NCBI GenBank assembly: GCA_017470425.1
Contig: JAFUYT010000004.1
Span: 50,496-114,495, forward strand
DNA length: 64,000 nt
From: Bacteroidaceae bacterium
GTDB taxonomy: Bacteria > Bacteroidota > Bacteroidia > Bacteroidales > Bacteroidaceae
Direction of reading: 5' to 3'
The position numbers and the translations under genes are program-made. Each line of letters opens with the position of its first letter. Within the stretch, counting starts at the first letter, position 1. The notes under the pieces were generated by a model. That model saw nothing but the letters and a program-made list of their open reading frames with translations. It was not told the origin of the DNA and searched no databases. Positions 26,974 through 50,905 of the stretch are shown in pieces.

Positions 26974-28026
26974 TTAACAGCCCTTAATGCGCAGGATGGC
27001 GGACATCTGCTGCTGCACTTCACGTGCCTTCTCGCCGGCGACGGCGGCGAAGCGCTCGCTGCTGTCGGCATAGATGATGGCGCGGGAGGAGTTCACGATG
27101 AGGCCGCAGTGGTCGTTCCAGCCGTACTCGCACACCTCTTCCAGGCTGCCGCCCTGGGCGCCGATGCCGGGGACGAGGAGGAAGTGGTCGGGGGCGAGGC
27201 GGCGGATGTCGGCGAAGGCGCTGCCTTGGGTGGCGCCGACGACGTACATGAGGGAACCGGCGCCCCCCTCCAAACCTCCCCGAGGGGAGGCTTTCTTCTC
27301 CCACTCCTGACTTTTCAGAATGACTTGCTCAAAGAGGCGAAGCCCCTCTCCCCGCTCCCCCCGTGGGGGGGAGGGCCGCAAAGCCGTGTGATCCTTTTCC
27401 CCAGAGGATAGGGAGTCCTCCCCCCCACGGGGGGAGTTAGAGAGGGGCTTCTTCTGAAAGTCCTCACTCCCCTTGTTGCTCGTCAGGGCAAGCAGGATGA
27501 CCCATTTGCCGGGGTAGCCGAGGAAGGGGGTGACGCTGTCCTCGCCCATGTAAGGGGCGACGGTGACGGCATCGACGTCCAGCTCCTCGAAGAAGGTGCG
27601 GGCGTAGAGCTTCGAGGTGTTGCCGATGTCGCCGCGCTTGGCGTCGGCGATGATGAACTGGTCGGGGTACTGTTCGCGGATGTACTTCACGGTCTTCTCG
27701 AAGGCCATCCACCCTTTCACGCCGTGGGCTTCATAGAAGGCGAGGTTGGGCTTGTAGGCGATGCAGTAGGACGCGGTGGCGTCGATGATGGCTTTGTTGA
27801 ACTCGAAGATCGGGTCGAAGCCGGGCTCCTTCGCCGCCCGCTCCACCAGGAACTGCGGCACCTTCTGCAGGTCGGTGTCTAAGCCTACGCACAGGAAGCT
27901 CCGCTTGCGGAGGATCTTGTCAAATAAAGACCCACCCCCGACCCCTCCCGTGAGGGAGGGGAGGGGCTGGCGCGATGTATGGTTGTTAGATTCCATGTGA
28001 CTTTGTTCTATCATGTTTGGTTTCAT
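26974..28026 (-). CDS. pyrF: Orotidine 5'-phosphate decarboxylase with repeat-derived insertions
   Basis: Last step of UMP synthesis. Catalytic motifs are intact: FLCVGLDTD (about 44-52), [18 protein letters not shown] with the Lys/Asp pair (about 125-135) and PGIGAQGG near the end. Length is 350 against about 275 in Bacteroides relatives. The excess is an N-terminal extension reading [14 protein letters not shown], an insertion at about 193-229 (111 bp, with [10 protein letters not shown] and [10 protein letters not shown]) and a short one reading [12 protein letters not shown] (about 246-257), all encoded by GC-rich palindromic elements. No Met lies between the N-terminal element and [12 protein letters not shown], so the element must be translated. 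Met5 and Met11 (27996) are alternative starts. The order prfA-pyrF is conserved. Confidence 0.93.
27261..27293 (-). repeat. Palindromic element inside pyrF (small)
   Basis: CCTCCCCGAGGGGAGG core within CCCCCCTCCAAACC...; adds [12 protein letters not shown] between EWEKK and [10 protein letters not shown], where relatives have a few residues. Confidence 0.75.
27340..27450 (-). repeat. REPIN-like inverted doublet inside pyrF, 111 bp in frame
   Basis: Ends are inverted repeats: AAGCCCCTCTCcccgct... at the left and ...GAGAGGGGCTT at the right, each arm with its own CCCCCCGTGGGGGG palindrome. 111 bp is 37 codons, no stop in the pyrF frame. Same element type as in aroE (36685) and truA (49158). 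Confidence 0.85.
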
Positions 28027-28128
28027 CTTAGTTATGCTAATAATTCGTCTATTAAGATTTCTTTAACCCTATTCCGCTACAATCCGGAGGCTCTCCCCTC
28101 CCTCACGGGAGGGGTCGGGGGTGGGTCT
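27928..28128. repeat. REPIN-like inverted doublet spanning the pyrF start
   Basis: Arms 27928-27966 and 28093-28128 are perfect inverted repeats over 36 bp (AGACCCACCCCCGACC..., each with CCTCCCGTGAGGGAGG). The pyrF start codon lies between them; the left arm is translated as its N-terminus. A decayed third arm (GGGGTTGGGTCTGGGG) follows at 28138. Confidence 0.88.
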
Positions 28129-28156
28129 GAGGGATCGGGGTTGGGTCTGGGGGGCT

Positions 28157-29272
28157 TCACAATGCCGATTCCTTCAGGCGTTCCGCATTCTCGGCCACCG
28201 TGAGGCGGTCGATGCACTCCTGGATGTCGCCGTCCATGAAGGCGGCGAGGTTGTAGATGGTGTAGCCGATGCGGTGGTCGGTGATGCGGCCCTGCGGGTA
28301 GTTGTAGGTGCGGATCTTGGCGGAGCGGTCGCCGGTGCTGACCATCGTCTTGCGGCGCGCGGCGATGTCGTCGATGTACTTCTGGTGCTCCTTGTCATAT
28401 ATAAAGGTACGCAGGCGCGCGAGCGCGCGTTCTTTATTTTTTGGTTGGTCACGTGTCTCGGTACACTCGATGAGGATCTCCTCCGTCTCGCCCGTGTTCG
28501 GGTTCGTCCACATGTAGCGGGCGCGCACGCCGGACTCCACCTTGTTCACGTTCTGTCCGCCGGCGCCTTGGCTGCGGAAGGTGTCCCATTTGATGGCGCC
28601 CTCGTTGATCTCCACGTCGAACTCCTCCGCCTCGGGTAGCACGGCGACGGTGGCGGCGGAGGTGTGTACGCGGCCCTGCGTCTCGGTGACCGGCACGCGC
28701 TGCACGCGGTGCACGCCGCTCTCGTATTTCATTGTGCCATAGACCTTCTCTCCCGTCACCGAGAAGATGATCTCCTTGTAGCCGCCCGCGGCACCCTCGG
28801 TGAAGCTCGACACGGCAATCTTCCAGCCCTTCGTCTCGCAGTACTTCGAGTACATGCGGAACAGGTCGCCCGCGAAGAGAGCCGCCTCGTCGCCGCCCGT
28901 GCCGCCGCGGATCTCCATGATGACGTTCTTGTCGTCCTCGGGGTCGGCGGGGATGAGCAACAGCTTGATGTCCTCCTCGAGCTGTGGAATGCGCTCCTGT
29001 GCGGCGTTGAGCTCCTCGCGCGCCATGTCGCGCATCTCGGCGTCGTCCTCGGTGGCGAGCATCTCCTTGGCTTCCTCGATGGTGGTGAGCGTCTGGACGT
29101 ACTCGGCGCGCTTCCTGACGATGGCGCCCAGGTCCTTGTATTCCTTTGTCAGCTTGACGTAGCGTCGCTGGTCGGCGATGACGGCGGGATCCGTGATGAG
29201 CGTCCCCACCTCCTCGTAGCGGCTCACCAATCCCTCAAGCCTCTCTAACAGTTCGTTGTTCTCTATTGCCAT
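28157..29272 (-). CDS. prfA: Peptide chain release factor 1
   Basis: Reads UAA/UAG and triggers peptide release. 371 residues. The stop-codon recognition tripeptide is PVT (in [15 protein letters not shown], about 185-200) and the catalytic GGQ is in [15 protein letters not shown] (about 240-250). Start [14 protein letters not shown] at 29272 matches homologues; the frame is open 46 codons further upstream but that stretch covers the -7 box and the opposite promoter. pyrF follows on the same strand, with a REPIN-like element between. No programmed frameshift is expected or seen. Confidence 0.97.
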
Positions 29273-29296
29273 GTCGTTGATATGCTTTTTGCGGTG

Positions 29297-29304
29297 CAAA
29301 GGTA
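29297..29304 (-). promoter_or_regulatory. -7 box of prfA
   Basis: TACCTTTG on the minus strand, 25 bp before the prfA ATG. Confidence 0.6.
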
Positions 29305-29350
29305 CGCAAAAAAGATAAATTATCAGAGATATCGCACATTTTTTCCTCTT

Positions 29351-29385: not shown

Positions 29386-29429
29386 CAGCGCAAAAGAATA
29401 CACTAATCATTTATAATTTTCAATCACTT

Positions 29430-30287: not shown

Positions 30288-30311
30288 TTCGAAGAACTGA
30301 AATACTCAACA

Positions 30312-31468: not shown

Positions 31469-32968
31469 TCAACCCTTCCACCAGCTGTCCTTCGTGTGGC
31501 AGAGGGCTTGCGCGATGCAGTTCATCGCTTTGCAGAATGGCACGTGGATGGGATCGTCTTTCCGGCGGAACAGAAAGCGCCAGGGTGTCACGAGGAGGAG
31601 GCGGCCGGCGGCGCAGGCGGCCAGCTTGTCAGCGGAGGGATGGTAGCGGTTGGTGAAGCCGTTGTCCTCGATGCGTACCACGGGGTAGCCCATGCCCAGG
31701 GCGGCATCGAGGATCTCTTGTTCGCCGCGGGCGATGCGGGGCGAGACGAGGATGGCACCGGCGGCTGCGGCCGCTAAGCAGCGCGCCTTCTGGGTGGGGA
31801 AGAGGGCGGCGTCCTTGCGGTGGCAGACGACGGGTAGCAGGCGGGCTGACAGCAGGTCGCGGTCGCCAAAGCTGTCACAGCTGATGCGCCCGTCGGTGAC
31901 AAGGAAGCGCTTCTGCAGATCCTCCCAGATGGCAGGGGTGAACTGGGTGGGGGCACAGACGCGGCGCAGATAGCCGCACATGGCGGGCAGGCTGACGGCT
32001 GTGTCGATGCCGCCGCGGCGTGGCATGAGGCTGGCGCGGTTCATGGTGCGCATGAGGCGGCTGCGCGGGTTGTTGCGGATATAGGCGCGCTGGGTCTCCA
32101 GCTGCGCCTCATCAACGGGGATGACATCGCAGTAGCCCGGCTCGAAGAGGGGCGGAAGGGAGGGGCGAGAGGGGGAGGGAAGGGGCTCGGCGATAGAAAC
32201 GCCGAGCGCTATCGGGGGGATGCTGGGCGGGGCGGCGGTGGTTGATTGCTGGGCGGTGGTTGATTGCTGGGCAGCGGTTGATTGCGGGGCGGTTGTTGAT
32301 AGCGGAGTGGCGGCTGTTGTTGGTTGTGGGGCAGCTGTTGTTGATTGTGGGGCAGCGGGTGTTGATTGTGGGGCAGCGGCTGTTGTTGGTTGTGGGGCAG
32401 CTGTTGTTGGTTGCGGGCCGGGTGTTGCTGGTTGCGGGGTGGCGGTGGTTTGTTGCGGGGCGGGTGTTCCGATAGCGGCAGGCGTTTTTATCGCCTGCGT
32501 TTCGGAGGCGGGGATGAGGCCGGTCATTTCCCAGTAGTGGCGGTTGCAGCCTTGCTTGAAGCCGGCGATGACGCGGCCCAGGTGGGTGCGCTGGCCGGCT
32601 TTGTTGAAGATGTCGCGGGTGGCGTGGAAGAGGATGTGGAGGTGCTCGGGCATGATGACATACTCATCGACTTCCAGCATCGGGTAGTGCTGCGGGATGC
32701 TGTGTAGCAGCTCCTGTTCCACCATCTGGCCGATGGGGGACAGGGCTACATGCGGGGCTTCGGCATCGCCGTCAGGCCTGCCAAGGTCGCCGCATACTCT
32801 CCCTAACGGCTGTCGCGGGTTTGCTGTGGATCTGTTGCCATCACCTCCCGTTTCCTGCCGAAAGGGCAGGTCGCGGGAGATGCTGATGGTGACATGAAAG
32901 TAACCGCGATAGCTGTACTCATGCGTGAAGCTGCGGCGCTTCATGCTGTGCTCCGTCGGGCTCTTCAT
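31469..32968 (-). CDS. REP-associated tyrosine transposase (RAYT), expanded, with a Rossmann-like C-terminal domain
   Basis: The N-terminal half is an IS200-like Y1/HUH nuclease: RGYFHVTISIS (about 20-30), the HUH motif in VIMPEHLHILF (about 105) and the nucleophile Tyr in QRAYIRNNPRSRL (about 290), the YIxxNP pattern of RAYTs. RAYTs are the known partners of REP/REPIN palindromes. Between the two motifs lies about 110 residues of Pro/Gln/Thr/Ala repeats absent from typical 165-residue RAYTs, ending in a family C palindrome (IALGVSIAEP). The C-terminal 200 residues (GAILVSPRIARGEQEIL, CAAGRLLLVTPW) look like a DprA/LOG-type nucleotide-binding fold found on Bacteroidetes RAYTs. Starts at 32968 or 32944, 19 bp after purM. 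Catalytic residues seem intact. Confidence 0.87.
   Translation of the reverse strand: MKSPTEHSMKRRSFTHEYSYRGYFHVTISISRDLPFRQETGGDGNRSTANPRQPLGRVCGDLGRPDGDAEAPHVALSPIGQMVEQELLHSIPQHYPMLEVDEYVIMPEHLHILFHATRDIFNKAGQRTHLGRVIAGFKQGCNRHYWEMTGLIPASETQAIKTPAAIGTPAPQQTTATPQPATPGPQPTTAAPQPTTAAAPQSTPAAPQSTTAAPQPTTAATPLSTTAPQSTAAQQSTTAQQSTTAAPPSIPPIALGVSIAEPLPSPSRPSLPPLFEPGYCDVIPVDEAQLETQRAYIRNNPRSRLMRTMNRASLMPRRGGIDTAVSLPAMCGYLRRVCAPTQFTPAIWEDLQKRFLVTDGRISCDSFGDRDLLSARLLPVVCHRKDAALFPTQKARCLAAAAAGAILVSPRIARGEQEILDAALGMGYPVVRIEDNGFTNRYHPSADKLAACAAGRLLLVTPWRFLFRRKDDPIHVPFCKAMNCIAQALCHTKDSWWKG
32186..32219 (-). repeat. Family C palindromic mini-element inside the RAYT gene
   Basis: CTCGGCG/CGCCGAG stem plus CGCTATCGGGGG tail; translated IALGVSIAEP. 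Same frame and orientation as the copies in purC and aroE. Confidence 0.8.
32224..32470 (-). repeat. Degenerate coding repeats in the RAYT gene
   Basis: About twelve 15-24-bp units based on TTGTTGATTGTGGGGCAGC, encoding variants of STTAAPQP. All keep the reading frame, indicating growth by in-frame slippage. Confidence 0.88.
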
Positions 32969-32987: not shown

Positions 32988-34337
32988 TCAGTAGTGGAAC
33001 TCGCCGAACTCGCTGCGGATGGTGAGGCTGCGGGGGCCTTCTTCGATGTGGCCGACAACCTGGGCGTCGATGTGGAAGCTCTTGGAGATGGCGATGACGC
33101 GGTCGGCATCCTCGGGGCTGACATAGACCTCGAGGCGGTGGCCGCAGTTGAAGACCTTGTACATCTCGCTCCAGTCGGCGCCGCTCTCCTCGGCGATGAT
33201 GCGGAAGAGGGGCGGCACGGGGAACATGTTGTCTTTCACGACGCGGCAGTTGTCGCCCACGAAATGCAGCACCTTCGTCTGGGCGCCGCCAGTGCAGTGC
33301 ACCATGCCGTGGATGCGGGGGCGGAGCTCATCGAGGAGGCGCCGGACGACGGGGGCGTAGGTGCGGGTGGGGGATAATACAAGTTTCCCGAGGGTAGCCC
33401 CCCGTGGCCCCCCGGTGGGGGGCGACTGTAAACTGCCTGTATTAACATCCCCCGCCGGGGGATTATAGGGGGCTCCATCCCCCGCCGGGGGATTATAGGG
33501 GGCTCCATCCCCCACGGGGGGAGTTAGAGAGGGGCTATCTGTCAGCTTGTATTTACCGCTATACACCAGCTCCTCGGGGACGGCGTGGTCGTAGGTTTCG
33601 GGGTAGCGCTCGGCGAGGTACTTGCTGAAGACGTCGTGGCGGGCGGAGGTGAGGCCGTTGGAGCCCATGCCGCCGTTGTACTCGTGCTCGTAGGTGGCCT
33701 GTCCGAAGCTGGCGAGGCCCACGATGACGTCGCCCAGGCGGATGTTGGCGTTGTTGATGACGTCGGCGCGGCGCATACGGCAGGTGACGGTGCTGTCCAC
33801 GATGATGGTGCGGACGAGGTCGCCCACGTCGGCCGTCTCGCCGCCCGTGCCGTAGATGCCGATGCCCATGTCGCGGAGCTCGGCCATGAGCTCGTCGGTG
33901 CCGTTGATGATGGCGGAGATGACTTCGCCGGGGATGAGCATCTTGTTGCGGCCTATGGTGCTGCTGACGAGGATGTTATCCACGGCGCCGACGCAGAGGA
34001 GGTCGTCGGTGTTCATGATGAGGGCGTCCTGCGCGATGCCTTTCCACACGCTGAGGTCACCCGTCTCGCGCCAGTAGGCGTAGGCGAGGCTCGACTTGGT
34101 GCCGGCGCCGTCGGCGTGCATGATGTTGCAGTATTCGGGGTCGCCGCCGAGGATGTCGGGGATGATCTTGCAGAAGGCCTGCGGGAAGATGCCCTTGTCG
34201 ATGTTCTTGATGGCTGCGTGGACGTCCTCTTTGGCGGCGGAGACGCCACGGGAGAGGTAGCGGGCAGAGGCAGACTCTCCCCCCGCCCTCCCTATCAGGG
34301 AGGGAGCAGTATCTGTTGTAATGTGGTTTTCTTTCAT
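32988..34337 (-). CDS. purM: Phosphoribosylformylglycinamidine cyclo-ligase-type protein with repeat-derived insertions
   Basis: AIR synthase of the purine pathway, Bacteroidetes type. Motifs: RGVSAAKEDVHAAI (about 29-42), HADGAGTKSSLAY (about 74-86), MNTDDLLCVGA, YGTGGETADVGD (about 166-177) and HCTGGAQTKVLH. 449 residues against about 390 in relatives. The surplus is the N-terminal [12 protein letters not shown] (element arm, translated because no Met follows before SRGVSA) and an insertion at about 267-315 ([17 protein letters not shown], with a 30-bp unit repeated). lemA precedes it, the RAYT gene follows 19 bp downstream. Confidence 0.93.
   Translation of the reverse strand: MKENHITTDTAPSLIGRAGGESASARYLSRGVSAAKEDVHAAIKNIDKGIFPQAFCKIIPDILGGDPEYCNIMHADGAGTKSSLAYAYWRETGDLSVWKGIAQDALIMNTDDLLCVGAVDNILVSSTIGRNKMLIPGEVISAIINGTDELMAELRDMGIGIYGTGGETADVGDLVRTIIVDSTVTCRMRRADVINNANIRLGDVIVGLASFGQATYEHEYNGGMGSNGLTSARHDVFSKYLAERYPETYDHAVPEELVYSGKYKLTDSPSLTPPVGDGAPYNPPAGDGAPYNPPAGDVNTGSLQSPPTGGPRGATLGKLVLSPTRTYAPVVRRLLDELRPRIHGMVHCTGGAQTKVLHFVGDNCRVVKDNMFPVPPLFRIIAEESGADWSEMYKVFNCGHRLEVYVSPEDADRVIAISKSFHIDAQVVGHIEEGPRSLTIRSEFGEFHY
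33391..33536 (-). repeat. GC-rich palindromic element inside purM, partly duplicated
   Basis: Contains two exact 30-bp units (33449-33478, 33479-33508; CCCCCGCCGGGGG core), a CCCCCGTGGGGG arm ending GTTAGAGAGGGGCT identical to the pyrF, aroE and truA element ends, and a diverged opposite arm. No stop in the purM frame. Confidence 0.82.
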
Positions 34338-34413
34338 GTATGATGTATGTAAATCTTCACTCTTCTTGAAAAGTAATTGCTCCCTCCCTCATAGGGAGGG
34401 CGGGGGGAGAGTC
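34273..34413. repeat. REPIN-like inverted doublet spanning the purM start
   Basis: Arms 34273-34310 and 34377-34413 are inverted copies of GACTCTCCCCCCGCCC plus an inner CCCTCCC/GGGAGGG palindrome. The purM ATG (34337) lies between; the outer end touches the lemA stop codon (TAA directly followed by GACTC). Confidence 0.9.
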
Positions 34414-34992
34414 TTAGAACTGCACTTCCGGTGCCTTCTCAGCTCCCGCCTCCGCTGCAAACGGGGTTTTCTTGTCGAAGCCGAAGATCATAGCCCAGAT
34501 GTTGTTGGGGAAGCGGCGGACGCTGACGTTGTAGGTCTGCACGGCTTCGTTGTACTGGCGACGTGCCTCGGCGATGCGGTTCTCGGTGCCTTCGAGCTGT
34601 GCCTGGAGTTCGCTGAACTGCTCGTTGGCTTTCAGGTCGGGGTAGGCTTCGGTGATGGCGAGGAGGCGTCCGAGGGCCTGGCTGACTTCGCCCTGTGCGG
34701 CCTGGTACTCAGCCAGCTTCTCGGGTGTGAGGTCGTCGGCGTTAACGGTGATCTGTGTTGCCTTGGTGCGGGCGGCCACGACGGCTTCGAGCGTCTCGCT
34801 CTCGTGGGCGGCATAGCCCTTGACGGTGTTCACAAGGTTGGGGATGAGGTCGGCGCGACGCTGGTACTGCGTCTGCACGTCGGCCCACTTCTGGGCTACT
34901 ACTTCCTCTTGTTCGACAAGTTTGTTGTAGGTGCAGCTGGTGAAAGCCATCGTTGCCAATATGGCAACTAACAATGATTTTAAAGTTTTCAT
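34414..34992 (-). CDS. lemA: LemA family lipoprotein
   Basis: 192 residues: lipoprotein-type signal (MKTLKSLLVAILATMAFTSC), then the LemA helical bundle with YNKLVEQEEVVAQKWADVQTQ, RRADLIPNLVNTVKGYA and the C-terminal YNVSVRRFPNNIWAMIFGF motif. LemA proteins are membrane-anchored with coiled-coil helices, function unclear. The TPM-domain gene directly upstream is its usual neighbour. The stop codon adjoins a REPIN-like element. Confidence 0.95.
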   Translation of the reverse strand: MKTLKSLLVAILATMAFTSCTYNKLVEQEEVVAQKWADVQTQYQRRADLIPNLVNTVKGYAAHESETLEAVVAARTKATQITVNADDLTPEKLAEYQAAQGEVSQALGRLLAITEAYPDLKANEQFSELQAQLEGTENRIAEARRQYNEAVQTYNVSVRRFPNNIWAMIFGFDKKTPFAAEAGAEKAPEVQF

Positions 34993-36029: not shown

Positions 36030-36036
36030 GTTATTA

Positions 36037-36162
36037 TTTATCATTTCTTATTTATCATTTCTTATTTATCATTTCTTATTTATCATTTCTTATTTATCAT
36101 TTCTTATTTATCATTTCTTATTTATCATTTCTTATTTATCATTTCTTATTTATCATTTCTTA
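36037..36162. repeat. 14-bp minisatellite, nine identical copies
   Basis: TTTATCATTTCTTA repeated nine times without a mismatch, just upstream of the TPM gene start. The transcript copies can pair, with one G-U, with the signal-peptide repeats. Identity of the units suggests recent expansion. Confidence 0.97.
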
Positions 36163-36180
36163 TTTATTATTTATCATTTG

Positions 36181-37116
36181 TCATTCTGATTCCTCCGTCC
36201 AGAAGTTCCAGCTGGCGAGGGCTTGGAGGTGCAGCATCTCGAGGCCGTTCTTGACGGTGGCGCCGTGCTCGCGGCCGCGCTTCATGAAGAGGGTCTCCTC
36301 GGGGTTATAGACGAGGTCGTAGAGGAGGTGGCGGGGGGTGAGGGCCTCATAGGGGATGGCGGGGCAGGTATCGACCTTCGGGTACATGCCGAGCGGCGAG
36401 CAGTTGACGATGACGGTGTAGTCGGCGAGGAGGGCGGGAGTGAGGGCGGAGTAGGAGAGGGGGGGGAACTCGGCGACACAGTCGCCGAGCACCGGACACG
36501 CCGCGGGGGAGCCTGTTCTGCTGACGTAGCGCCACTGGAGGCCGAGCTTCTCGAGGCCGCGGCAGATGGCTTTGGAGGCGCCGCCGGTGCCGAGGACGAG
36601 GGCGCGGCGGTGGTGGGGCTGCAGGAGGGGGCGGATGCTGTCCATGAAGCCGATGATGTCGGAGTTGTAGCCTTTGAGGTAAGGCCCCTCTCCCCGCTCC
36701 CCCCGTGTGGGGGAGAGCCTCGTTTCCGCTTGTAAATATTTAGCCTCAGAAGTCCTCCCCCCCACGGGGGGAGTTAGAGAGGGGTTAGGGCAAACCTTCA
36801 CCACATTCACGGCGCCGATGGCGCGGGCTTCGTCGGAGAGGGCGTCGAGGTAGGGGATGACAGCCTGCTTGTAGGGGATGGTGACGTTGAAGCCGCGCAG
36901 GGCGGGGTGGTCGGCGAGGACTTGGGGCAGCTGCTCGATGCTGGGCAGCTCGAAGTTGAGGTACTCGGCATCGATGCCTTCCTCGGCGAACTTATTATTA
37001 AAGAACGCGCGCGAGAAGCTGTGGCCGAGGGGGTAGCCGAGGAGACCGAAGACTCTCCCCCCGCCCTCCTTATGAGGGAGGGAGTGGTTACTATTGCTGT
37101 GCGCTGGCTTTGTCAT
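36181..37116 (-). CDS. aroE: Shikimate dehydrogenase with three repeat-derived insertions
   Basis: Reduces dehydroshikimate with NADPH. Motifs: GLLGYPLGHSFS (about 23-35), NVTIPYK with catalytic Lys (about 77-83), GAVNVVK, GYNSDIIGF with Asp, LGTGGASKA (NADP loop), VNCSPLGMYP and NGLEMLHLQA. 311 residues against about 248 in Bacteroides. Additions: N-terminal HSLPHKEGGGR (element arm; no Met before the core), about 34 residues ([11 protein letters not shown] ... SPTRGERGEG) between VNVVKV and YLKGYNSD, and SPAACPVLGDCVAEFPP after the VSRTG strand. The second site is a surface loop joining substrate domain strands. Follows ubiE/menG in the cluster. Confidence 0.94.
   Translation of the reverse strand: MTKPAHSNSNHSLPHKEGGGRVFGLLGYPLGHSFSRAFFNNKFAEEGIDAEYLNFELPSIEQLPQVLADHPALRGFNVTIPYKQAVIPYLDALSDEARAIGAVNVVKVCPNPSLTPPVGGRTSEAKYLQAETRLSPTRGERGEGPYLKGYNSDIIGFMDSIRPLLQPHHRRALVLGTGGASKAICRGLEKLGLQWRYVSRTGSPAACPVLGDCVAEFPPLSYSALTPALLADYTVIVNCSPLGMYPKVDTCPAIPYEALTPRHLLYDLVYNPEETLFMKRGREHGATVKNGLEMLHLQALASWNFWTEESE
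36469..36504 (-). repeat. Family C palindromic mini-element inside aroE
   Basis: Hairpin GGCGACTGTGTCGCC within GCGGCGTGTCCGGTGC...; translated CPVLGDCVAE. Closest to the miaA copy (about 30 of 36 bases). Confidence 0.8.
36685..36784 (-). repeat. REPIN-like inverted doublet inside aroE
   Basis: CCCCTCTCCCCGCTCCCC... left arm and ...GGGGAGTTAGAGAGGGG right arm, as in pyrF and truA; middle part TTTCCGCTTGTAAATATT is unique. Read through as [11 protein letters not shown] to SPTRGERGEG. Confidence 0.87.
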
Positions 37117-37246: not shown

Positions 37247-37957
37247 CTATTTGGTGGCCAGATACATGGTTGATAGCCCGAAGGTGAAGCGCTTGAAACG
37301 GACGTCGCTGAAGCCGCAGTGGCGGAGGAGGGGGACGAGGCGCTCGGCTTGGGGGAAGGCTTCCATCGAGCGGGGGAGGTAGGTGTAGGCGCTGTCGTCG
37401 TGGCTGACGAGGCGTCCGATGACGGACATGATGACCTTGGAGTAGATCCAGAAGAGCTGCTTCATGGGGAAGCGGGGTGGGGTGGTGAGCTCCACGAGCA
37501 TCAGGTGGCCGCCGGGCTTGAGGACGCGGCACATCTCGGAGAGGCCTGCTTCGAGGTCGGCGAAGTTGCGGGCGCCGTAGGCGACGGTGACGGCGTCGAA
37601 GGTGCCGCGGTCGAAGGAGAGGGCTGTGCTGTCGTCCTTCATGAAGTAGATGACGTGGTCGAGGCCTGCGGCCTTGACCTTCTCGCGGCCTACGTCCATC
37701 ATCCCCTCGCTGATATCGACGCCGATGATGCGGTCGGGGTCGAGGCGCTGCGCGGCGAGGATGGCGAAGTCGCCGGTGCCCGTGGCGATGTCGAGGATCG
37801 TCTGCGGGGCGAAGGGCTTCAGGGCGTCAATGGCCTCACGGCGCCAGCGGCGGTCGATGCCGAGGGAGAGGGTGTGGTTGAGGCGGTCGTAGGTGGGGGC
37901 GATGTGGTTGAACATCGTCTCCACCTGTTCGCGCTTGGGGGTTATCGGCTTAGCCAT
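37247..37957 (-). CDS. ubiE: Demethylmenaquinone methyltransferase
   Basis: SAM-dependent C-methylation of demethylmenaquinone, the last step of menaquinone synthesis. 236 residues with the UbiE/MenG signatures: [18 protein letters not shown] (about 23-40), the SAM loop [35 protein letters not shown] and [21 protein letters not shown]. The start overlaps the purC end by 16 bp, so translation is probably coupled. No inserted element is present in this gene, though one begins 3 bp after its stop. Confidence 0.95.
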
Positions 37958-39138
37958 GCCTTGACATTATTCTCGATGCGGGCGGCGAGGTCGGCGGACG
38001 AACCGCCGACAACGGGGCTCTCGGGGGAGGAGGGGGACTCGGCGATAGAATCGCCGAGCGCTGTCGGGGAGGTGGAAGGGCTCTCGGGGGCGGAAGGGCT
38101 CTCGGGGGAGGCGGAAGGGCTCTCGGGGGCGGAAGGGCTCTCGGGGGAGGCGGAAGGGCTCTCAGGGGCTGAAGCGGAGGGGCTTCCGGAGGGGATGGCG
38201 GGGCGCTGGAAGGGGTGGCCGGTGATGTGCTCGTAGAGCTCGATGTAGCGGTCGCTGATGCTGCGGACGAAGTCGTCGGTGAGCTCGGGCATCACGTCGC
38301 CGGGGCGGTTCATGAAGTTGTGGTCGATGAGCCACTGGCGCACGAACTCCTTGGAGAGCTGGCGCTGGGGCTGTCCGGCGGCGAAGCGCTCCTCGTAGCC
38401 GTCGGCGTAGAAGTAGCGGCTGGAGTCGGGGGTGTGGATCTCGTCGATGAGGATGACCTTGCCGTCGCGCTTGCCGAACTCATACTTGGTATCCACGAGG
38501 ATGAGACCCTTCTGGGCGGCGATCTCGGTGCCGCGCTGGAAGAGGGCGCGGGTGTAGCGCTCCATCACCTCGTAGTCCTCGGCGCTGACGATGCCCTGGC
38601 GGATGATCTCCTCGCGGGAGATGTTCTCGTCGTGGCCTTCGTCGGCTTTGGTGGTGGGGGTGATGATGGGCTCCGGGAAGCGCTCGTTCTCGCGCATCCC
38701 GTCGGGGAGGCGGACGCCGCAGAGCTCACGGCAGCCGGCTTTGTACTCGCGCCAGGCGGAACCTGTGAGGTAGCCGCGGATGATCATCTCCACGCGGAAG
38801 CCTTCGGCCTTGAGGCCTACGGTGACCATCGGGTCGGGGGTGGCGAGCTTCCAGTTGGGAACGATGTCGGCGGTGGCGTCGAGGAAGGAGGCGGCGATCT
38901 GGTTCAGCACCTGTCCCTTGAAGGGGATGCCCTTGGGGAGGACGACGTCGAAGGCGGAGATGCGGTCGGTGGCGACCATCACGAGGAGGTCGCCGAGGTC
39001 ATAGACGTCGCGCACTTTGCCGTGATAGACGCTTTTCTGTCCCTTGAAATGGAAATCTGTCTGGGTGAGAGCGGACTCTCCCCCCGCCCTCCCTATAAGG
39101 GAGGGAGCGGTTACTCCTGAGGATTGCTTTTCACTCAT
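37942..39138 (-). CDS. purC: SAICAR synthetase with repeat-derived N-terminus and low-complexity C-terminal region
   Basis: Joins aspartate to CAIR in purine synthesis. Core (about 28-315): [84 protein letters not shown]. The N-terminus reads [12 protein letters not shown] from a REPIN arm, again with no Met before the core. Near the C-terminus about 65 residues of [13 protein letters not shown] repeats and a family C element ([10 protein letters not shown]) separate the core from the conserved-looking end [16 protein letters not shown]. Total 398 versus about 315 in relatives. Follows phoH, overlaps ubiE. Confidence 0.94.
38038..38175 (-). repeat. Family C element and 18/21-bp coding repeats near the purC 3' end
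   Basis: A CTCGGCGAT/ATCGCCGAG hairpin (38038-38058) with CGCTGTCGGGG tail, then about six copies of GGAAGGGCTCTCGGGGG-type units of 18 or 21 bp. All preserve frame. Confidence 0.87.
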
Positions 39139-39240
39139 AGTAGTTCGGTCTTTATTTGTTGGTTATATGTTTCAATGAATCACTTACACTTCTTGATGGG
39201 TGACTGCTCCCTCCCTTTTGGGGAGGGTGGGGGGAGAGTC
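39074..39240. repeat. REPIN-like inverted doublet spanning the purC start and phoH end
   Basis: 167 bp; arms 39074-39112 and 39200-39240 are inverted repeats of GACTCTCCCCCC(G/A)CCC with inner palindrome. The right arm is translated as the phoH C-terminus (SPPTLPKREGAV), the left as the purC N-terminus; the purC ATG is inside. Confidence 0.9.
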
Positions 39241-40275: not shown

Positions 40276-41151
40276 ATGTTGAAACTGCCGAAAAAGGACC
40301 TTTTTGTGAAGGCTGTCGTCGCTGTGGTGGCGTTGCTCTTCATCATCCGCCTCTGCTTCCCGGTCATGGGAGACGGGGCTACTGCTCGCGGCGAGGCCGC
40401 GGCACAGGATAGCGTGGCAGCGCCCTTGCGGGAAGCTGCCGTTCAAGAACCCGTAGCAGAGGAGGCCGCCGCAGAGGAGGCCGCTGCTCAAGATAGTGTA
40501 TATAGCGCTGCCGGCAGTGCCCGGCAGAGCGTGCTGCCGCATCTGGCGTTCAGTGCTCCGAGCTTCGACTTCAGCCGTCGCCACCGCATCCGCGGCGTTG
40601 TCTCTTACCGCGCCGCCTTCCCGGACGTGCAGGATGTCCAGTTCCCCGCCGCCGTGGCGAACGGCGTGCCGCCCGTGGCGAACCGCGCGGAGGCCGAGGG
40701 CCGCAAGAGGGATCTCCTCTTCGTGGGGGTGAACCCCTACTACGAGATGGACCCCGGCATGAACCGCAGCATCCCGTACCTGGTGCCGAAGGCCAGCCTG
40801 CTGCTACAGCACATCGGCCGCCGCTTCCTCGATTCGCTGGCGGTGAAGGGTGTGCCACTGCACAAAATCATCGTCACCAGCGTCCTGCGCACCGAGGACG
40901 ACGTGCGGCGCCTGAAGCGCGTGAACGGCAACGTCTCCGAGCAGAGCTGTCATCGCTTCGGCACGACGTTCGACATCTCCTACAACCGCTACCACACCGT
41001 CTGCCCGCCCGACGACCCGCAGCGGCGCGCTGTGCGCAGTGATTCGCTGAAGTACATCCTCTGTGAGGTACTGCGCGATGCGCGTCAGGAAGGGCGCTGC
41101 TACGTGAAGTACGAGGTGAAGCAGGGGTGCTTCCATGTGACGGTGAGGTGA
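40276..41151 (+). CDS. DUF5715-family protein, membrane-anchored, peptidase M15-like pattern
   Basis: 291 residues. One N-terminal transmembrane segment (VKAVVAVVALLFIIRLCFPV, about 10-29), an Ala/Glu-rich linker (EPVAEEAAAEEAAAQDS) and a periplasmic domain. The pattern SVLRTEDDVRRL...SEQSCHRFGTTFDISY (about 205-245) resembles the SxHxxGxAxD zinc site of M15 D-Ala-D-Ala peptidases, with GTTFD in place of GxAxD. Ends CFHVTVR, where relatives keep a His ligand. A peptidoglycan role is plausible, not proven. The 7-bp repeat array begins at its stop codon. Confidence 0.82.
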   Translation: MLKLPKKDLFVKAVVAVVALLFIIRLCFPVMGDGATARGEAAAQDSVAAPLREAAVQEPVAEEAAAEEAAAQDSVYSAAGSARQSVLPHLAFSAPSFDFSRRHRIRGVVSYRAAFPDVQDVQFPAAVANGVPPVANRAEAEGRKRDLLFVGVNPYYEMDPGMNRSIPYLVPKASLLLQHIGRRFLDSLAVKGVPLHKIIVTSVLRTEDDVRRLKRVNGNVSEQSCHRFGTTFDISYNRYHTVCPPDDPQRRAVRSDSLKYILCEVLRDARQEGRCYVKYEVKQGCFHVTVR

Positions 41152-41221
41152 GAGTTGAGAGTTGACAGTTGAGAGTTGACAGTTGAGAGTTGACAGTTGA
41201 CAGTTGACAGTTGAGAGTTGA
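41152..41221. repeat. 7-bp minisatellite, ten copies
   Basis: GAGTTGA/CAGTTGA repeated ten times directly after the DUF5715 stop. The same unit in reverse complement occurs at 48935-48958 and a start of it at 63989-64000. Confidence 0.95.
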
Positions 41222-41247
41222 CAGGTGATTTGTTAATGAAGTTAAAA

Positions 41248-41952: not shown

Positions 41953-42081
41953 TGCAGCGCGCTGCATGATGCAAGGATGCGTCCTTTCTCGTGGAAGGAT
42001 GCATCCTTGTTGCGTGAAGGATGCGTCCTTGTTGCGTGAAGGATGCGTCCTTGTTGCGTGAAGGATGCATCCTTTTTCGGT
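41952..42081. repeat. 22-bp tandem array, five copies, each with a 14-bp palindrome
   Basis: Starts with palindrome ATGCAGCGCGCTGCAT (41952-41967), then units at 41972, 41994, 42016, 42038 and 42060 with AAGGATGCATCCTT or AAGGATGCGTCCTT plus an 8-bp spacer. Lies directly after the Spy-like gene stop. Confidence 0.95.
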
Positions 42082-42325
42082 GTCATGCAGTGTGTGTACC
42101 AATGGGGATGTATCCACTAAAGGGATACAGGGGGGTGTGTCTTAACTTCCGGGAGCTTACAGCTGCACAGTTGTCCTTATCCTGCGCCTTGGTTGTAGGC
42201 GCAAGGGTAGAACAGGACAGGTGTGCAGTGTCGCGATCTCCCCGGCATCTGGGAGGACGGAGTCGTATGCAGGGAATCAGATAGAAGTGAAAAAAGGCGA
42301 AATGCAAAAAGAGTGACGTTTTTAT
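42082..42325. other. Non-coding gap before the OB-fold protein gene
   Basis: Apart from a decayed extension of the 22-bp array (GGATGTATCC near 42106) and a small TGCGCC/GGCGCA hairpin near 42182 I see nothing definite. An open frame runs through it from 42223 but continues into the real gene start at 42388. Confidence 0.5.
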
Positions 42326-46567: not shown

Positions 46568-48900
46568 AAAAGACCGCCCTCTTCTCGCTCTTCATCCTGT
46601 TCGCAGGATGCCTGTGGGCACAGCCCCTGTCGCCCGCTTACTACCGTCAGGTGCAAGGCCTCAACCAGGCAGCGCTGAAGACCGCCCTCCACGACCTTAT
46701 CCAACCGCGCCAAGTGCCGTCGTACGGCGGCAAGGGCGAGGGCTATACGTGGGCCGGTTTCGCGGTGGCCGATGTGATGCCTGACGGCTCCGTCCGCGAC
46801 CGCTACAGCAGCGAACATCGCTCCTTCGACGGTCTGAACGCCGTCGCAGGGATGAACATCGAGCATATCTGGGCGAACTCCTGGTGGGGACACACCGTGA
46901 ACAACGCCTACTGCGACCTCTTCAACCTCTATCCCTCCGACGGCCCCGCCAACCAGCGCAAGAGCAACAACCCCATCGGCATCGTCGATGGCGCCACCTC
47001 CTTCGACAACGGCGTCATCAAGGTGGGCAAGAGCAGCAGCTACAGCGCCACGCAGCCCATCACTGCCTGGGAACCCGCCGACGAGTGGAAGGGCGACTTC
47101 GCGCGTACCTATTTCTATATGGCCACCACCTACCAGCACATGACCGACGAGTGGCAGACCACCGAAGGGCTGCTGACCGTGGATCCCGAGGCGTGGACGA
47201 CGATGCGCCCGTGGGTCTATGAGCTGATGCTCCAGTGGGCGGCCGACGACCCTGTCGATGACATCGAGCGCGACCGCAACGAAGTCATCTACTCGATTCA
47301 AGGCAACCGCAACCCCTACGTGGATGTCCCCGAGCTGGCCGACTACGTCTGGGGTGCCAGCCGCGAACAGGTGTTCTACGTGGATCCTGCCTCGACGGCG
47401 CCCGAGGTGTTCGTGCCGGTGCAGGATGCGCCGGTGGATTTCGGCCTGCAGGCGCTCAGCCTCGGCATGACGCGCCACCTCGTCGTCCGCGGTCGTAACC
47501 TCCCCGCGGGCTTGCACGCCTCCATCGAAGGCACCGGCTTCGCCATGAACGCGGCCGACCTCAGTGCCGACGAGGTGACTGCGGGTGGCCGTCTGCCCAT
47601 CACGATGAGTGCCACCGAGGGCGGCGACTACGCGGCCACCCTCATCCTGCGCAGCGACGATGCCTTCGAGCAGCGCGTGCCGCTGCACATGACCGTCATC
47701 GACGGCATCCCCGCCTATCCCGCTCAGAACGTCGTGTGCTCCGTCAACAGCCGCTCGTTCACGGCCTCGTGGATGGATATGCATCTCGCCGAGGGCACCC
47801 GCTACACCCTCAATGTCTATACCAAGGATGCCGGGGGCGCTCGTCGCTCTTTCAGCGAATACCCCGTGGAGCTGACCGACACGTTCTGCGTCGTCAAGAA
47901 CCCCGTCGCCTCCACCACCTACTACTATGAGGTGACCGCCGCCGGTATGACCAGCAATGAGGTGGAGGTCGTGATGCCCGCCATCACGCCCGTCTTCTCC
48001 GCCTCGGCTTCTAACCTGCTGTTCGCGACGGTGCCCGATGCCGCCTCGCAGGCGCAGACGGTGAAGCTGACCGTCCTCGGCATCAGTGGCTACAGCGTCG
48101 CCGTCAGCTGTCCGGCTCCCTTCGAGGTGAGCACCGACGGCGAGACGTGGACGCATGAGCTCACGCTGAACGCCTCGCAGCTGGAGTTCCAGGTGCGCTT
48201 CGGCGGTGCCGCCTATGAGGGAACCTACGAGGAGGAGATGACCCTCTCGCTCGCAGATGTCAAGGATCTCGTCGTGGCGATGTCCGCCAGCGTCGATGCC
48301 ACCAAGGCTTTCTTCGAGAGCTTCGAGCTGGGCAGCAAGGGCGGCTACGCCGAGAGCGTCGTCACCTGCAATGCCGCCACGTGGTCCATGGTGAACGCCC
48401 TCCTCGCTGCCGACGAGAACCGCAACGACGGTCGCAGCGTGCGCATGAAGATTGGTGGCTCCATTACCATGCAGGGCGACAAGGTCGGCGGTTGCGACTC
48501 CCTCTGGTTCTACGCCGGACTCTACAACAAGGACACGGGCGTGATGCTCACCGTCAGCTACAGCCTCGACGGCGGCATGACATGGACGCCCGTCGTCAGC
48601 GACCTCACCTTCACCAGCGGGGAGTGGAAGCGCTATGCCTATGAGATCAACCGCGACGGCCTGATCCGCCTGAAGTTCAACACCCAGGACGGCAACCAGA
48701 ACAAGCGCATCAACATCGACGACATCCAGATGAGCAACTACGGCACCTCCACCGCCCTCCGCGACATCGAATGGGTCTTCGACGACAGCGCCACCGCCGT
48801 CTATACCCTCGACGGCCGCTATGTCGGCACGACGGTGCCCTCGCGCAGTGGCATCTACATCGTCCGCCAAGGTGAAAAGATTAGGAAAATAAGAAAATAG
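46564..48900 (+). CDS. Second secreted endonuclease I family nuclease, 778 aa
   Basis: Signal peptide (MKKTALFSLFILFAGCLWAQ) and endonuclease I domain about 20-280: GMNIEHIWANSWWG corresponds to the His motif of its neighbour (EHTVPQSWF), with CDLFNLYPSDGPANQRKSNNP and DDPVDDIERDRNEVIY. Then Ig-like and fibronectin-like beta modules (about 300-590), a jelly-roll-like module (AFFESFELGSKGGYAES ... IDDIQMSNYG, about 595-745) and the tail GIYIVRQGEKIRKIRK. The two nucleases share domain order but little sequence outside the motifs, suggesting an old duplication. Probably surface-attached or secreted by the type IX system. Confidence 0.9.
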   Translation: MKKTALFSLFILFAGCLWAQPLSPAYYRQVQGLNQAALKTALHDLIQPRQVPSYGGKGEGYTWAGFAVADVMPDGSVRDRYSSEHRSFDGLNAVAGMNIEHIWANSWWGHTVNNAYCDLFNLYPSDGPANQRKSNNPIGIVDGATSFDNGVIKVGKSSSYSATQPITAWEPADEWKGDFARTYFYMATTYQHMTDEWQTTEGLLTVDPEAWTTMRPWVYELMLQWAADDPVDDIERDRNEVIYSIQGNRNPYVDVPELADYVWGASREQVFYVDPASTAPEVFVPVQDAPVDFGLQALSLGMTRHLVVRGRNLPAGLHASIEGTGFAMNAADLSADEVTAGGRLPITMSATEGGDYAATLILRSDDAFEQRVPLHMTVIDGIPAYPAQNVVCSVNSRSFTASWMDMHLAEGTRYTLNVYTKDAGGARRSFSEYPVELTDTFCVVKNPVASTTYYYEVTAAGMTSNEVEVVMPAITPVFSASASNLLFATVPDAASQAQTVKLTVLGISGYSVAVSCPAPFEVSTDGETWTHELTLNASQLEFQVRFGGAAYEGTYEEEMTLSLADVKDLVVAMSASVDATKAFFESFELGSKGGYAESVVTCNAATWSMVNALLAADENRNDGRSVRMKIGGSITMQGDKVGGCDSLWFYAGLYNKDTGVMLTVSYSLDGGMTWTPVVSDLTFTSGEWKRYAYEINRDGLIRLKFNTQDGNQNKRINIDDIQMSNYGTSTALRDIEWVFDDSATAVYTLDGRYVGTTVPSRSGIYIVRQGEKIRKIRK

Positions 48901-48958
48901 GAAAATAAGAAAATAGGAAAATTAGAAAATAATCTCTCAACTGTCAACTCTCAACTCT
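48897..48958. repeat. AT-rich and 7-bp repeats before truA
   Basis: GGAAAATAAGAAAATA-type units to 48932, then TCAACTG/TCAACTC 7-mers (48935-48958) ending at the truA start codon. Confidence 0.85.
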
Positions 48959-48960
48959 CC

Positions 48961-49932
48961 TTGCGTTACTTCATCGAACTCAGCTACGACGGCACAGCCT
49001 ACCACGGCTGGCAGATACAGCCCAACGGCAGCAGTGTCCAGGAGACCCTGCAGCGGGCGCTGTCCCTGCTGTTGCGTGAGGAGGTCACCGTCACCGGTGC
49101 CGGGCGCACCGACGCCGGCGTTCATGCCGCGATGATGGTGGCGCATGTGGATATAGAGGCCCCTCTCCCCGCTCCCCCCGTGGGGGGGAGGGCCGCACAG
49201 CCTATGTCATCCTCTTCCTCTCAAGAGTACAAGGAAGTCCTCCCCCCCGTGGGGGGGAGAGCCGCACAGCCTATGTCATCCTCTTCCTCTCAAGAGTACA
49301 AGGAAGTCCTCCCCCCCGTGGGGGGGAGAGCCGCAGAGCCTATGTCATCCTCATCCTCTCAAGAGTACAAGGAAGTCCTCCCCCCCACGGGGGGAGTTAG
49401 AGAGGGGCCTCCTGAGAGGAACCTGGTATATCGCCTCAACGGCATCCTCCCCCACGACATCGCCATCCACCGGATCTATCCCGTGGCCGATGATATGCAC
49501 GCCCGCTTCTCCGCCCTCGCGCGTACCTATTATTATTATGTACACACGCGTAAGTCGCCCTTCCTGCGTGACCGCTCCTGGCGCCTCGTGAAGACGCCCG
49601 ACTTCGAGGCCATGAACCGCGCTGCCGCCACGCTCCTGGAGTACGAGGACTTCACCAGCTTCTCCAAGGTGAACACCGACACGAAGACCAACATCTGCCA
49701 CGTCCGCAGTGCCCGCTGGGTGCAGCTCTCCGACTACGAATGGCGCTTCGAGATCACCGCCGACCGTTTCCTGCGCAATATGGTGCGTGCCATCGTGGGC
49801 ACCTTGATGGAAGTCGGCCGCGGCCAGCTGTCCCTCGACGGCTTCCGTAAGGTGATAGAAGATAAGAACCGCTCTGCGGCCGGCGACAGTGTCCCGGCGA
49901 GGGGGCTGTTTTTGCAGAATGTAGAGTATTAA
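48961..49932 (+). CDS. truA: tRNA pseudouridine(38-40) synthase with an 84-codon repeat insertion
   Basis: Isomerises U38-U40 in tRNA anticodon arms. Starts with TTG (no ATG precedes RYFIELSYDGTAYHGWQIQ, which homologues show as the N-terminus). Catalytic Asp in AGRTDAGVHA (about 50-59); later motifs ARTYYYYV, YEDFTSFSK and RFLRNMVRAIVGTL are normal. Between DIEA and NLVYRLNGILP about 84 residues are inserted by a REPIN-like element whose interior is triplicated ([19 protein letters not shown] repeated). 323 residues versus about 245-250 usual. The DMT transporter starts 1 bp after the stop. Confidence 0.93.
   Translation: MRYFIELSYDGTAYHGWQIQPNGSSVQETLQRALSLLLREEVTVTGAGRTDAGVHAAMMVAHVDIEAPLPAPPVGGRAAQPMSSSSSQEYKEVLPPVGGRAAQPMSSSSSQEYKEVLPPVGGRAAEPMSSSSSQEYKEVLPPTGGVREGPPERNLVYRLNGILPHDIAIHRIYPVADDMHARFSALARTYYYYVHTRKSPFLRDRSWRLVKTPDFEAMNRAAATLLEYEDFTSFSKVNTDTKTNICHVRSARWVQLSDYEWRFEITADRFLRNMVRAIVGTLMEVGRGQLSLDGFRKVIEDKNRSAAGDSVPARGLFLQNVEY
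49158..49409 (+). repeat. REPIN-like inverted doublet inside truA with 69-bp triplication
   Basis: 252 bp in frame. Outer ends GGCCCCTCTCCCC and GAGAGGGGCC are inverted. The interior unit of 69 bp (23 codons) is present three times with one or two mismatches, each copy including a CCCCCCGTGGGGGGG palindrome. Confidence 0.93.
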
Positions 49933-49933
49933 C

Positions 49934-50905
49934 ATGTGGTTACTATTAGCCTTCACCTCAGCCGCCCTGCTCGGCTTCTATGACGTCTTCAAGAAACAAG
50001 CCTTGAAGAACAATGCCGTCGTGCCAGTGCTGACGCTGAACACCCTGTTCAGCTCGCTCATCTTCCTGCCGCTGGTGGTGCTCTCGGCGGCGGGACGGTT
50101 GCCGGAGGACTCGCTGTTCTACGTCCCCGTTTGCGGATGGGAGGTGCACAGGTACATCGTCCTGAAGGCTGTCATCGTGTTGGCGTCGTGGCTCTGTGGC
50201 TACTACGCTATCAAGCACCTGCCCCTCACGCTCGTGGGTCCCATCAACGCCACGCGCCCCGTGATGGTTCTGCTCGGCGCAGTCTTCGTCTTCGGCGAGC
50301 GCCTGAACCTCTATCAATGGATAGGTGTCCTGCTGGCCATCCTGGGTTTCTTCCTCCTCAGCCGCAGCGGCAAGAAAGAAGGCATCAACTTCCGCCACAA
50401 CCGCTGGGTGGTCCTCGCGGTGCTCGCCTCCGCCTTCGGGGCTGTCAGCGCCCTCTACGACAAATATCTCATGGCATCCCCTGAGGTGGGTGGGGTAGGG
50501 CTGAACCGTATGGCGGTGCAGAGCTACTTCGTGTTCTATCAGTTTCTGATGATGATGGCGGTGTGGATAAAGACCCGCCCCCAAACCCCTCCCGTGAAGG
50601 AGGGGAGTGGCAGCGCGCAGCTCTCGAGCGTAGCGAGGCTCTTCCCCTTACGGGGAAGCGGGGAGAGGGGTTTCTGGGTCTTCCTCATCTCCCTCTTCCT
50701 CTCGGCTGCCGACTTCGTCTATTTCTACGCCCTCACCCTTCCCGGCGCCCTCATCTCCGTGGTCTCCATGATCCGGCGGAGCAGCGTGCTGGTCAGCTTC
50801 ACGGTTGGTGCGTGGGTCTTCCACGAGAAGAACCTCCGTTCGAAAGCCGTTGACCTTGTCCTGGTACTATTAAGTATGGTGTTCCTGTGGATGGGCAGTC
50901 AGTGA
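49934..50905 (+). CDS. EamA/DMT-superfamily transporter with an inserted loop
   Basis: Ten hydrophobic segments in two EamA halves (WLLLAFTSAALLGFYDVF at the start; ATRPVMVLLGAVFVFGERL ending the first half; SVVSMIRRSSVLVSFTVGAWVFHEKNL in the second). Inner-membrane drug/metabolite transporter; substrate unknown. A hydrophilic insertion of about 35 residues (RPQTPPVKEGSGS ... LRGSGERG, about 214-248) lies in a loop between helices and is encoded by a REPIN-like element. Otherwise the length would be about 290, normal for the family. Likely cotranscribed with truA. Confidence 0.88.
   Translation: MWLLLAFTSAALLGFYDVFKKQALKNNAVVPVLTLNTLFSSLIFLPLVVLSAAGRLPEDSLFYVPVCGWEVHRYIVLKAVIVLASWLCGYYAIKHLPLTLVGPINATRPVMVLLGAVFVFGERLNLYQWIGVLLAILGFFLLSRSGKKEGINFRHNRWVVLAVLASAFGAVSALYDKYLMASPEVGGVGLNRMAVQSYFVFYQFLMMMAVWIKTRPQTPPVKEGSGSAQLSSVARLFPLRGSGERGFWVFLISLFLSAADFVYFYALTLPGALISVVSMIRRSSVLVSFTVGAWVFHEKNLRSKAVDLVLVLLSMVFLWMGSQ
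50571..50680 (+). repeat. REPIN-like inverted doublet inside the DMT transporter
   Basis: Left arm AGACCCGCCCCCAAACC with CCTCCCGTGAAGGAGG, right arm CCCCTTACGGGGAAG...AGAGGGGTTTCTGGGTCT; ends are imperfect inverted repeats; centre has a CTCGAGCGTAGCGAG hairpin. In frame. Confidence 0.83.

Follow-up and report, generated by a model that had tools for sequence, protein, structure and literature searches.

Inverted palindromic doublets in frame within conserved genes of a Bacteroidaceae genome

How can the gene of a core enzyme hold a GC-rich palindrome of some hundred base pairs and still read through it? The question is raised by a stretch of 64,000 nucleotides from a Bacteroidaceae bacterium (contig JAFUYT010000004.1 of assembly GCA_017470425.1, hereafter the window), in which pyrF, purM, aroE, truA and a gene for a drug/metabolite transporter (DMT) each carry such an insert. 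An initial annotation had called these inserts REPINs, that is, doublets of repetitive extragenic palindromes (REPs) that form hairpins, and had attributed to this lineage a family of them that coding sequences tolerate. We find a repeat family that lies in frame in host genes under constraint, is absent from orthologues and uses the same loops in several species of the genus. The explanation that we consider probable is that mobile palindromes resembling REPs or Rickettsia palindromic elements (RPEs) have spread in this genome and are translated and tolerated in enzyme loops.

The inserts of the window

The element was recognized by its two arms. In the window, arm CCCCTCTCCCCGCTCCCC has five matches with up to 3 mismatches against 0.16 expected (three of them exact), and arm GGGGAGTTAGAGAGGGG has five against 0.18 expected (four exact), which confirms that both are real and far above chance. 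An arm reads ARG-CCCCTCTC, then three or four variable bases (TAA in the R arm, CCCG in the L arm), then CTCCCCCC-GT-GGGGGG. The complete element is an inverted doublet (L arm, interior, R arm) of about 100–115 bp with terminal inverted repeats of about 10 bp, its exact ends being ambiguous by a few bases. All four doublets that were folded form a single long hairpin (-66 to -83 kcal/mol, z -3.8 to -6.8), the RNA fold of the pyrF doublet reaching -82.6 kcal/mol with a z of -6.8. The inserts and their host genes are as follows.

26974..28026, minus strand: pyrF (orotidine-5'-phosphate decarboxylase), host gene; residues 34-328, matched by TIGR02127, span the insert, and there are orthologues without it
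27343..27447, minus strand: complete inverted doublet of 105 bp with exact arms, in frame in pyrF (residues 194-228)
27266..27293, minus strand: second, shorter GC hairpin insert in pyrF, before MYVVGATQG, located by alignment
32988..34337, minus strand: purM, host gene; AIRS (68-187) and AIRS_C (328-436) flank the insert
33388..33534, minus strand: GC hairpin cluster in frame in purM, ending in one exact R arm (33518-33534)
36181..37116, minus strand: aroE, host gene, identified by family match
36685..36784, minus strand: complete doublet of 100 bp with exact arms, in frame in aroE, its translation ending in SPTRGERGEG
48961..49932, plus strand: truA, host gene, identified by family match, GRTDAGV motif intact
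49160..49407, plus strand: doublet in frame in truA, its interior grown to three 69-bp tandem units
50578..50670 (approximate), plus strand: related but degenerate doublet, in frame in the gene of an EamA (DMT) transporter, with one mismatch in the arm

All five inserts that had been announced are thus present, but they are not uniformly the inverted doublets described: purM has one exact R arm with shorter hairpin repeats, and truA has its array of three 69-bp units inside a doublet. That they keep the frame was borne out. In the four genes with exact arms (pyrF, purM, aroE and truA) the open reading frame (ORF) is uninterrupted and family or orthologue matches lie on both sides of the insert, and the motifs GRTDAGV of TruA, DAKRGD of PyrF and KMSKR of IleS, a host outside the window, are intact. 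The inserts add about 30–70 residues, where 30–85 had been claimed. An orthologue of the EamA transporter in a related genome, G019, has a similar insert at the same site, and this copy is therefore regarded as older. The inserts split profile matches: purM, truA and aroE are each matched in two stretches, and TIGR00878 stays under its model cut-off on both stretches of PurM. Such splitting may hurt annotation and could lower the marker-based completeness of metagenome-assembled genomes (MAGs) of this kind.

The foot of the arm is strongly conserved. Base -2 was a purine at 62/62 R arms and base -1 was G at 92% of them; for the L arms (n=38) the values were 97% and 87%, respectively, while RG precedes 16.6% of the other C4 runs. 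The RG may be either the true end of the element or a target preference. By sequence, stop codons occur in only one of the three frames of the R arm, in each orientation, and in no frame of the L arm, so that most readings of the element are open.

Copies across the assembly

The host assembly (G000), probably from a relative of rumen Bacteroidales, is a MAG of 2.42 Mb in 36 contigs and is 72% complete. The whole-genome arm search and the count of intergenic versus intragenic copies had both been proposed with the initial annotation. One arm, with up to 2 mismatches, has 64 sites in G000 (38 exact) against a single site for the backward control; the arm counts in the window and in the assembly, set against expectation and this control, led us to reject chance GC-rich repeats. 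Loci outside the window were fetched around the arm sites and, after arms had been merged and two duplicate loci discarded, 55 units were counted. Of these, 52 sit in an ORF of 200 aa or longer, in a frame free of stops and flanked by no fewer than 30 codons on either side; among the other three, one is between ORFs and two are just upstream of a probable gene start. As the loci have 58% GC and are rich in spurious long ORFs, random windows served as a control and family matches as independent support. The same ORF criterion was satisfied by 77% of random 105-bp windows, meaning that the excess is real but moderate (p = 4e-4).

The family identity of the host ORFs is stronger evidence. Of the 49 element-bearing ORFs scanned, among which locus L102 counts on both strands, 43 match a protein family of the NCBIfam models with E <=1e-10 (1e-5 in one scan), some of these matches being under the curated cut-off. 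The hosts include IleS (with two elements), ValS, MetG, ArgS, CysS, HisS, PheT, PurL, ClpB, TsaD and TruB, as well as RlmN, PrmC, ProA, Lpd, HemW, FeoB, MazG, CobQ, WecB and IspD. A single family match crosses the insert in IleS, MetG, ValS, HisS, CysS, ProA, FeoB and others; for the SpoIID-domain, arabinopyranosidase-like, galactosidase-like and PreA ORFs the match was shown on one side only. The six ORFs without a family match are L097, L098:2357-3622, L110:5145-7394, L113, L120 and the second strand of L102. Three further loci, with an L arm but no R arm, are also within ORFs, two of which resemble peptidyl-tRNA hydrolase and UvrA by sequence; the fetched loci hold five L-only units, and other L-arm sites with 2 mismatches exist.

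Judged by the longest ORF, 34 of the 52 intragenic units are read R-first in phase 0, 5 R-first in phase 2 and 13 in the opposite orientation, a tally in which family matches place at least three units (L096, L102 and L123) on the other strand. The frame containing TAA is unused among the 52, partly by the definition of the count.

Two further explanations bear on these counts. If the inserts were removed or skipped, by RNA excision or ribosomal bypass, they would never appear in the protein; the strong hairpins in coding mRNA would suit such a process, but an excised element needs no open frame and these units are nearly all stop-free and in frame, and we give this idea almost no weight. Equally implausible is an immobile origin, by local low-complexity expansion in hypervariable loops: the 69-bp array of truA and the proline-rich tail of purC are of that kind, but near-identical sequence in dozens of unrelated genes contradicts it. 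A phage origin was set aside as well, an exact 30-mer of the element having 0 matches in viral contigs.

Host genes and their loops in relatives

We then considered whether the host genes are functional. Six of them are under purifying selection, with ratios of nonsynonymous to synonymous substitution rates (dN/dS) of 0.03-0.29 in 12 comparisons, two relatives for each gene, some dS values being near-saturated. Intact paralogues, which would have favoured a pseudogene reading, were not found for pyrF or truA in the G000 assembly at its present completeness, a search that concerned these two host genes; an apparent second truA on contig C22 is a contig overlap of 14.8 kb, 99.97% identical. The pseudogene reading was set aside on the constraint of the six genes and the lack of a pyrF or truA paralogue, the counted ORFs being stop-free by construction. 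In an AlphaFold2 model of PyrF built with 44 orthologues, 191 of the 350 residues have a predicted local distance difference test (pLDDT) score of at least 90 and the insert falls below 50 at 197-225.

Two observations concern these genes. The truA array (49174-49394; L141:1-280) sits where contigs C31 and C22 diverge, and C22 starts inside it with four units versus three; the copy number may vary or may have broken the assembly. The related genome G003 has N- and C-terminal pieces of a second pyrF near its full-length copy (L130:4765-5010 = G003:C42:50764-51006), like the remains of a duplication.

For comparison, syntenic regions were taken from genomes of the same genus, their proteins aligned and the loops measured between conserved anchors. 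The IleS loop has 40 residues in G000 versus 10 in 8/8 relatives, and the truA loop 101 versus 30-33 in the six relatives measured (in a seventh, G015, the anchor was unmatched). The purM loop has 57 residues versus 10, 21, 30 and 45 in four relatives, the aroE loop 41 versus 11, 11, 13, 40 and 50, and the loop at pyrF site 1 43 versus 13-33 in six. The claim that each gene exceeds its relatives by about the length of the element is therefore approximately true of truA; for aroE and purM it is so only in comparison with the shortest relatives, and the same loop of pyrF and aroE is occupied by other long inserts in some relatives. Equally long, unrelated loops, named at the outset as evidence that would count against the annotation, thus do occur in part of the same-genus relatives, while in aroE of G015 and G018 the same loop holds members of the G000 family itself.

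The long loops of some relatives are also Pro/Gly/Arg-rich and mostly of other sequence, such as PSLLPLKGESG. Several named records of pyrF have inserts of the LPLKGESG, PLEGERGGG or SLGEGLGVG type at the same two sites, and ASPRGGLEG stands at the site of the shorter pyrF insert in records L142-L144; for the majority of the named records further away, the pyrF match covers about 258-284 aa, and in a few it extends up to 296. These other loops look like further palindrome-derived inserts. Elements related to those of G000 were found at the same loops in ClpB and PheT of G015 and in Lpd, FeoB and truA of G104, the genes being named from their flanks. Since inserts recur at the same sites across relatives, these sites are recurrently used, permissive loops. 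In the ClpB tree G015 is not adjacent to G000, with weak support, which bears on descent versus independent insertion at the same site.

A strict 27-mer of the element is present in 22 of 121 same-genus genomes, with 57 copies in G000, 50 in G015 and at most 17 elsewhere; it has 0 copies in the relatives G003 and G010. A broader arm pattern matches 19 of 35 chosen genomes, with 25 arms in G113, 15 in G016 and 13 in G062. A family lying in frame in conserved enzymes genome-wide is supported, but its assignment to the lineage was too broad, only two genomes having at least 50 copies.

The scenario that we propose runs as follows. Doublets of about 100–115 bp, with ARG-CCCCTCTC-TAA or CCCG-CTCCCCCC-GT-GGGGGG arms, would have spread through G000, mainly into protein-coding genes, and copies keeping the frame in exposed variable loops would survive. 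Their translation would give proteins that still work a flexible segment of about 35 residues, rich in Pro, Ser, Gly and Arg, and older copies would erode into the long variable loops of the relatives. Mobilization by a single-strand transposase of the Y1 type would be the weakest step.

Candidate transposases and known palindromes

The window contains a candidate for this step, next to purM, of the type of the REP-associated tyrosine transposases (RAYTs).

31469..32944, minus strand: candidate Y1/RAYT-type transposase with the motifs MPEHLH ... YIRNNP and a long C-terminal part

Residues M98, P99, H101 and H103 (M-P-x-H-x-H) and Y288, N292 and P293 (Y-x-x-x-N-P) are invariant in the 21 aligned rows. 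Compared with the PDB, the family profile matches the transposase 2xm3 (E 0.0015), which we take to be ISDra2 TnpA, and TnpArep 4er8 (E 0.049). Beyond the Y1 motifs the window RAYT and its homologues have a conserved C-terminal part in common, which in the window protein gave no Pfam or NCBIfam match at the cut-offs used. Between its HUH and Tyr motifs this protein also has a stretch rich in repeats. A single-sequence fold model was poor (mean pLDDT 39.8) and was not used. The purM arm lies about 0.57 kb from the presumed start of the gene, which itself holds one degenerate arm-like match (32157-32174, 3 mismatches).

G000 has several RAYT paralogues. The clade of the window type (support 100/100) is represented in all six genomes with at least 10 strict 27-mers versus 6/33 genomes with none (p = 2.8e-4), and in 10/18 genomes with any strict 27-mer versus the same 6/33 (p = 0.011). 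In these figures presence means a best E <1e-40, a cut set after the values had been seen, the genomes were hand-picked, 4 of the 22 27-mer-positive ones were not included, and the statistics ignore kinship.

A Y1 (RAYT) transposase is a plausible candidate for the mover, and the strongest competing explanation builds on it: the elements would be bona fide REPINs, moved by a RAYT of the window type or of another clade, whose copies inside genes would simply be tolerated, like the intragenic REPs already described. The inverted doublets and their hairpin arms, the RAYT paralogues of G000 and the association with the strict 27-mer all agree with this, as do the in-frame REPs inside tnpAREP genes of subclass 2.4, including those of Bacteroidetes, that PMC6006769 reports. 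However, the G000 copies are mainly intragenic, a GTAG or CGTC tag was not found at the arm foot, which reads ARG-CCCCTCTC, and no arm was found in the fetched flanks (1.3-1.6 kb per side) of 5/6 window-type RAYTs. Moreover, PMC6006769 describes RAYT subclasses with a large C-terminal domain as not REP-associated, and the window RAYT has a long C-terminal part. The name REPIN is therefore only partly earned: two short inverted palindromes in one hairpin are there, the extragenic location and the tag are not, and we did not retain the family assignment. True REPINs are quite possible, although we would not expect them. As arms are missing near most window-type RAYTs and the association weakens with the broader pattern, a RAYT of any clade as the mover is likewise held well below even chances.

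Another conceivable origin is as miniature inverted-repeat transposable elements (MITEs) of a DDE insertion sequence ending in ARGCCCCTCTC. Inverted repeats of about 10 bp, the length of about 100–115 bp and the strong palindrome would suit MITEs. In the fetched loci, without a systematic search, no parental insertion sequence ending in this way was noticed, and a consistent target-site duplication was not seen by eye in the unit flanks; we regard this origin as distinctly improbable.

Several observations weigh against the spread of tolerated mobile palindromes that we favour, or against its transposase step. Translation of the inserts is a prediction from the reading frames. No consistent target-site duplication was seen and no exact empty site was defined. 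In the PyrF model the conserved residues 184-187, ahead of the insert, also have a pLDDT below 50. The spans of 31 intragenic doublets fall as 14, 2 and 15 at 0, 1 and 2 modulo 3, some spans being 7 bases short where the search pattern cut them; an element built to a length of 3n was dropped, since the spans fall into more than one class. Fetched arms lie in ORFs in 19/33 cases in G015, 14/16 in G104 and 3/4 in G059, versus 74%, 75% and 81% at random, respectively. Pfam Y1_Tnp matches 13 of the 21 aligned rows, the window RAYT not among them. With the broader pattern, the window-type RAYT is present in 10/15 genomes with at least 4 arms versus 6/20 with at most one (p 0.044), and in 7/11 with at least 10 arms versus 6/20 when the four genomes with 4-9 arms are excluded (p 0.13). 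Four genomes with 10-25 arms have no window-type RAYT (G113, G016, G062 and G085), and five have the RAYT without arms (G007, G082, G096, G102 and G126). In G015, an R arm lies no more than about 1.03 kb from three of five RAYT-type genes, which all belong to other clades, as the REPIN reading would allow; in one of the three no Tyr motif was found.

The lack of an intragenic excess in G015 makes the near-exclusive intragenic niche a property of G000 rather than of the family, perhaps the result of one expansion. A bolder proposal is that the element is adapted to life in proteins, with arms that stay free of stops in most frames of either strand, insertion beside RG by a single-strand HUH transposase, coding sequence as the main niche and a repeated supply of loops to the core enzymes of the genus, successive families re-using the same loops. 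The spread over modulo-3 classes slightly lowers its odds, and we consider it rather unlikely.

Two arm-bearing loci near RAYT-type genes may be recorded here. In G015 an RsmA/KsgA-like gene, named by sequence (L252:2241-3230), has two tandem R arms near its 3' end and lies directly upstream of a RAYT of another clade. On contig C35 of G000 the ORF of a second RAYT-type gene (L331:1687-3060) contains two loose matches to the L arm, with 2 mismatches.

The Rickettsiales are the best-known hosts of palindromes that lie in frame in coding sequence. Ogata et al. reportedly described RPEs in frame inside genes there; we know of no mechanism by which RPEs move. PMC10969869 places nearly half of the RPEs of R. 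conorii in ORFs, as well as 11 of the 12 homologues from other Rickettsia. As described there, RPEs resemble the G000 elements in being palindromic, about 100-150 bp long and in frame in unrelated genes, with a conserved peptide that is translated in RPEs and predicted here. They differ in that the G000 family, which probably belongs to another phylum, has C4/G4 arms, no CGTC end and nearly all of its units in ORFs; the two were likened by description only.

According to PMC3733652, REP dimers in ORFs encode 20-30 aa in tRNA synthetases, pseudouridine synthases and uvrA, among others, most REPs being intergenic. These dimers share with the G000 family a place in ORFs and overlapping types of host gene, whereas they are tagged by GTAG/CGTC and mostly intergenic and the G000 elements are mostly intragenic with an ARG-CCCCTCTC foot. 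Compared with REPIN/RAYT systems in general, the inverted pair of short palindromes, the dozens of copies and the RAYT-type genes in the genome are alike; the G000 elements, in contrast, are mostly not extragenic, and a REP-RAYT-REP arrangement was not demonstrated for them. PMC6006769 already suggests, on subclass 2.4, that insertions in flexible loops may be harmless. Bacteroidetes hosts, the YIxNNP motif also seen in the window gene and in-frame palindromes between HuH and Y are common to that subclass and our case, but its motif is NH[IFV]H and its REPs are of the GT[AG]G kind, where EHLH and a long C-terminal part mark the window gene.

As RPEs and intragenic REPs are already published, the kind of element is known. 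Except for these in-frame REPs in tnpAREP genes, no report of such a family in Bacteroidota was found in listings of open-licence full texts. The novelty, so far as the searches reach, lies in a Bacteroidales family that lacks GTAG/CGTC tags, is concentrated in the conserved genes of one genome and uses the same loops in several species of the genus. It would be an apparently unrelated, GC-rich counterpart of RPEs, in which essential genes hold dozens of near-identical copies, species differ in the presence or absence of copies and there are candidate HUH transposases; with this combination, the movement of such elements and the amount of extra loop that a core enzyme can bear become open to test.

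Other repeats were seen in the window. A second palindrome family (AGACTCTCCCCCCGCCCTCCCTAT...) occurs at 34272-34414, 39074-39240, 27928-28128 and 37049-37095. Its arms lie at the start of one gene and at the end of the next (purM, purC/phoH, pyrF/prfA) and give N-terminal extensions; the first 33 or so codons of pyrF include such an arm and may not be translated. PurC (37942-39138, minus strand) has a proline/serine-rich tail that was not seen in five aligned orthologues. Finally, near-perfect 14-bp and 22-bp tandem repeats lie at 36031-36170, 41145-41242 and 41973-42082.

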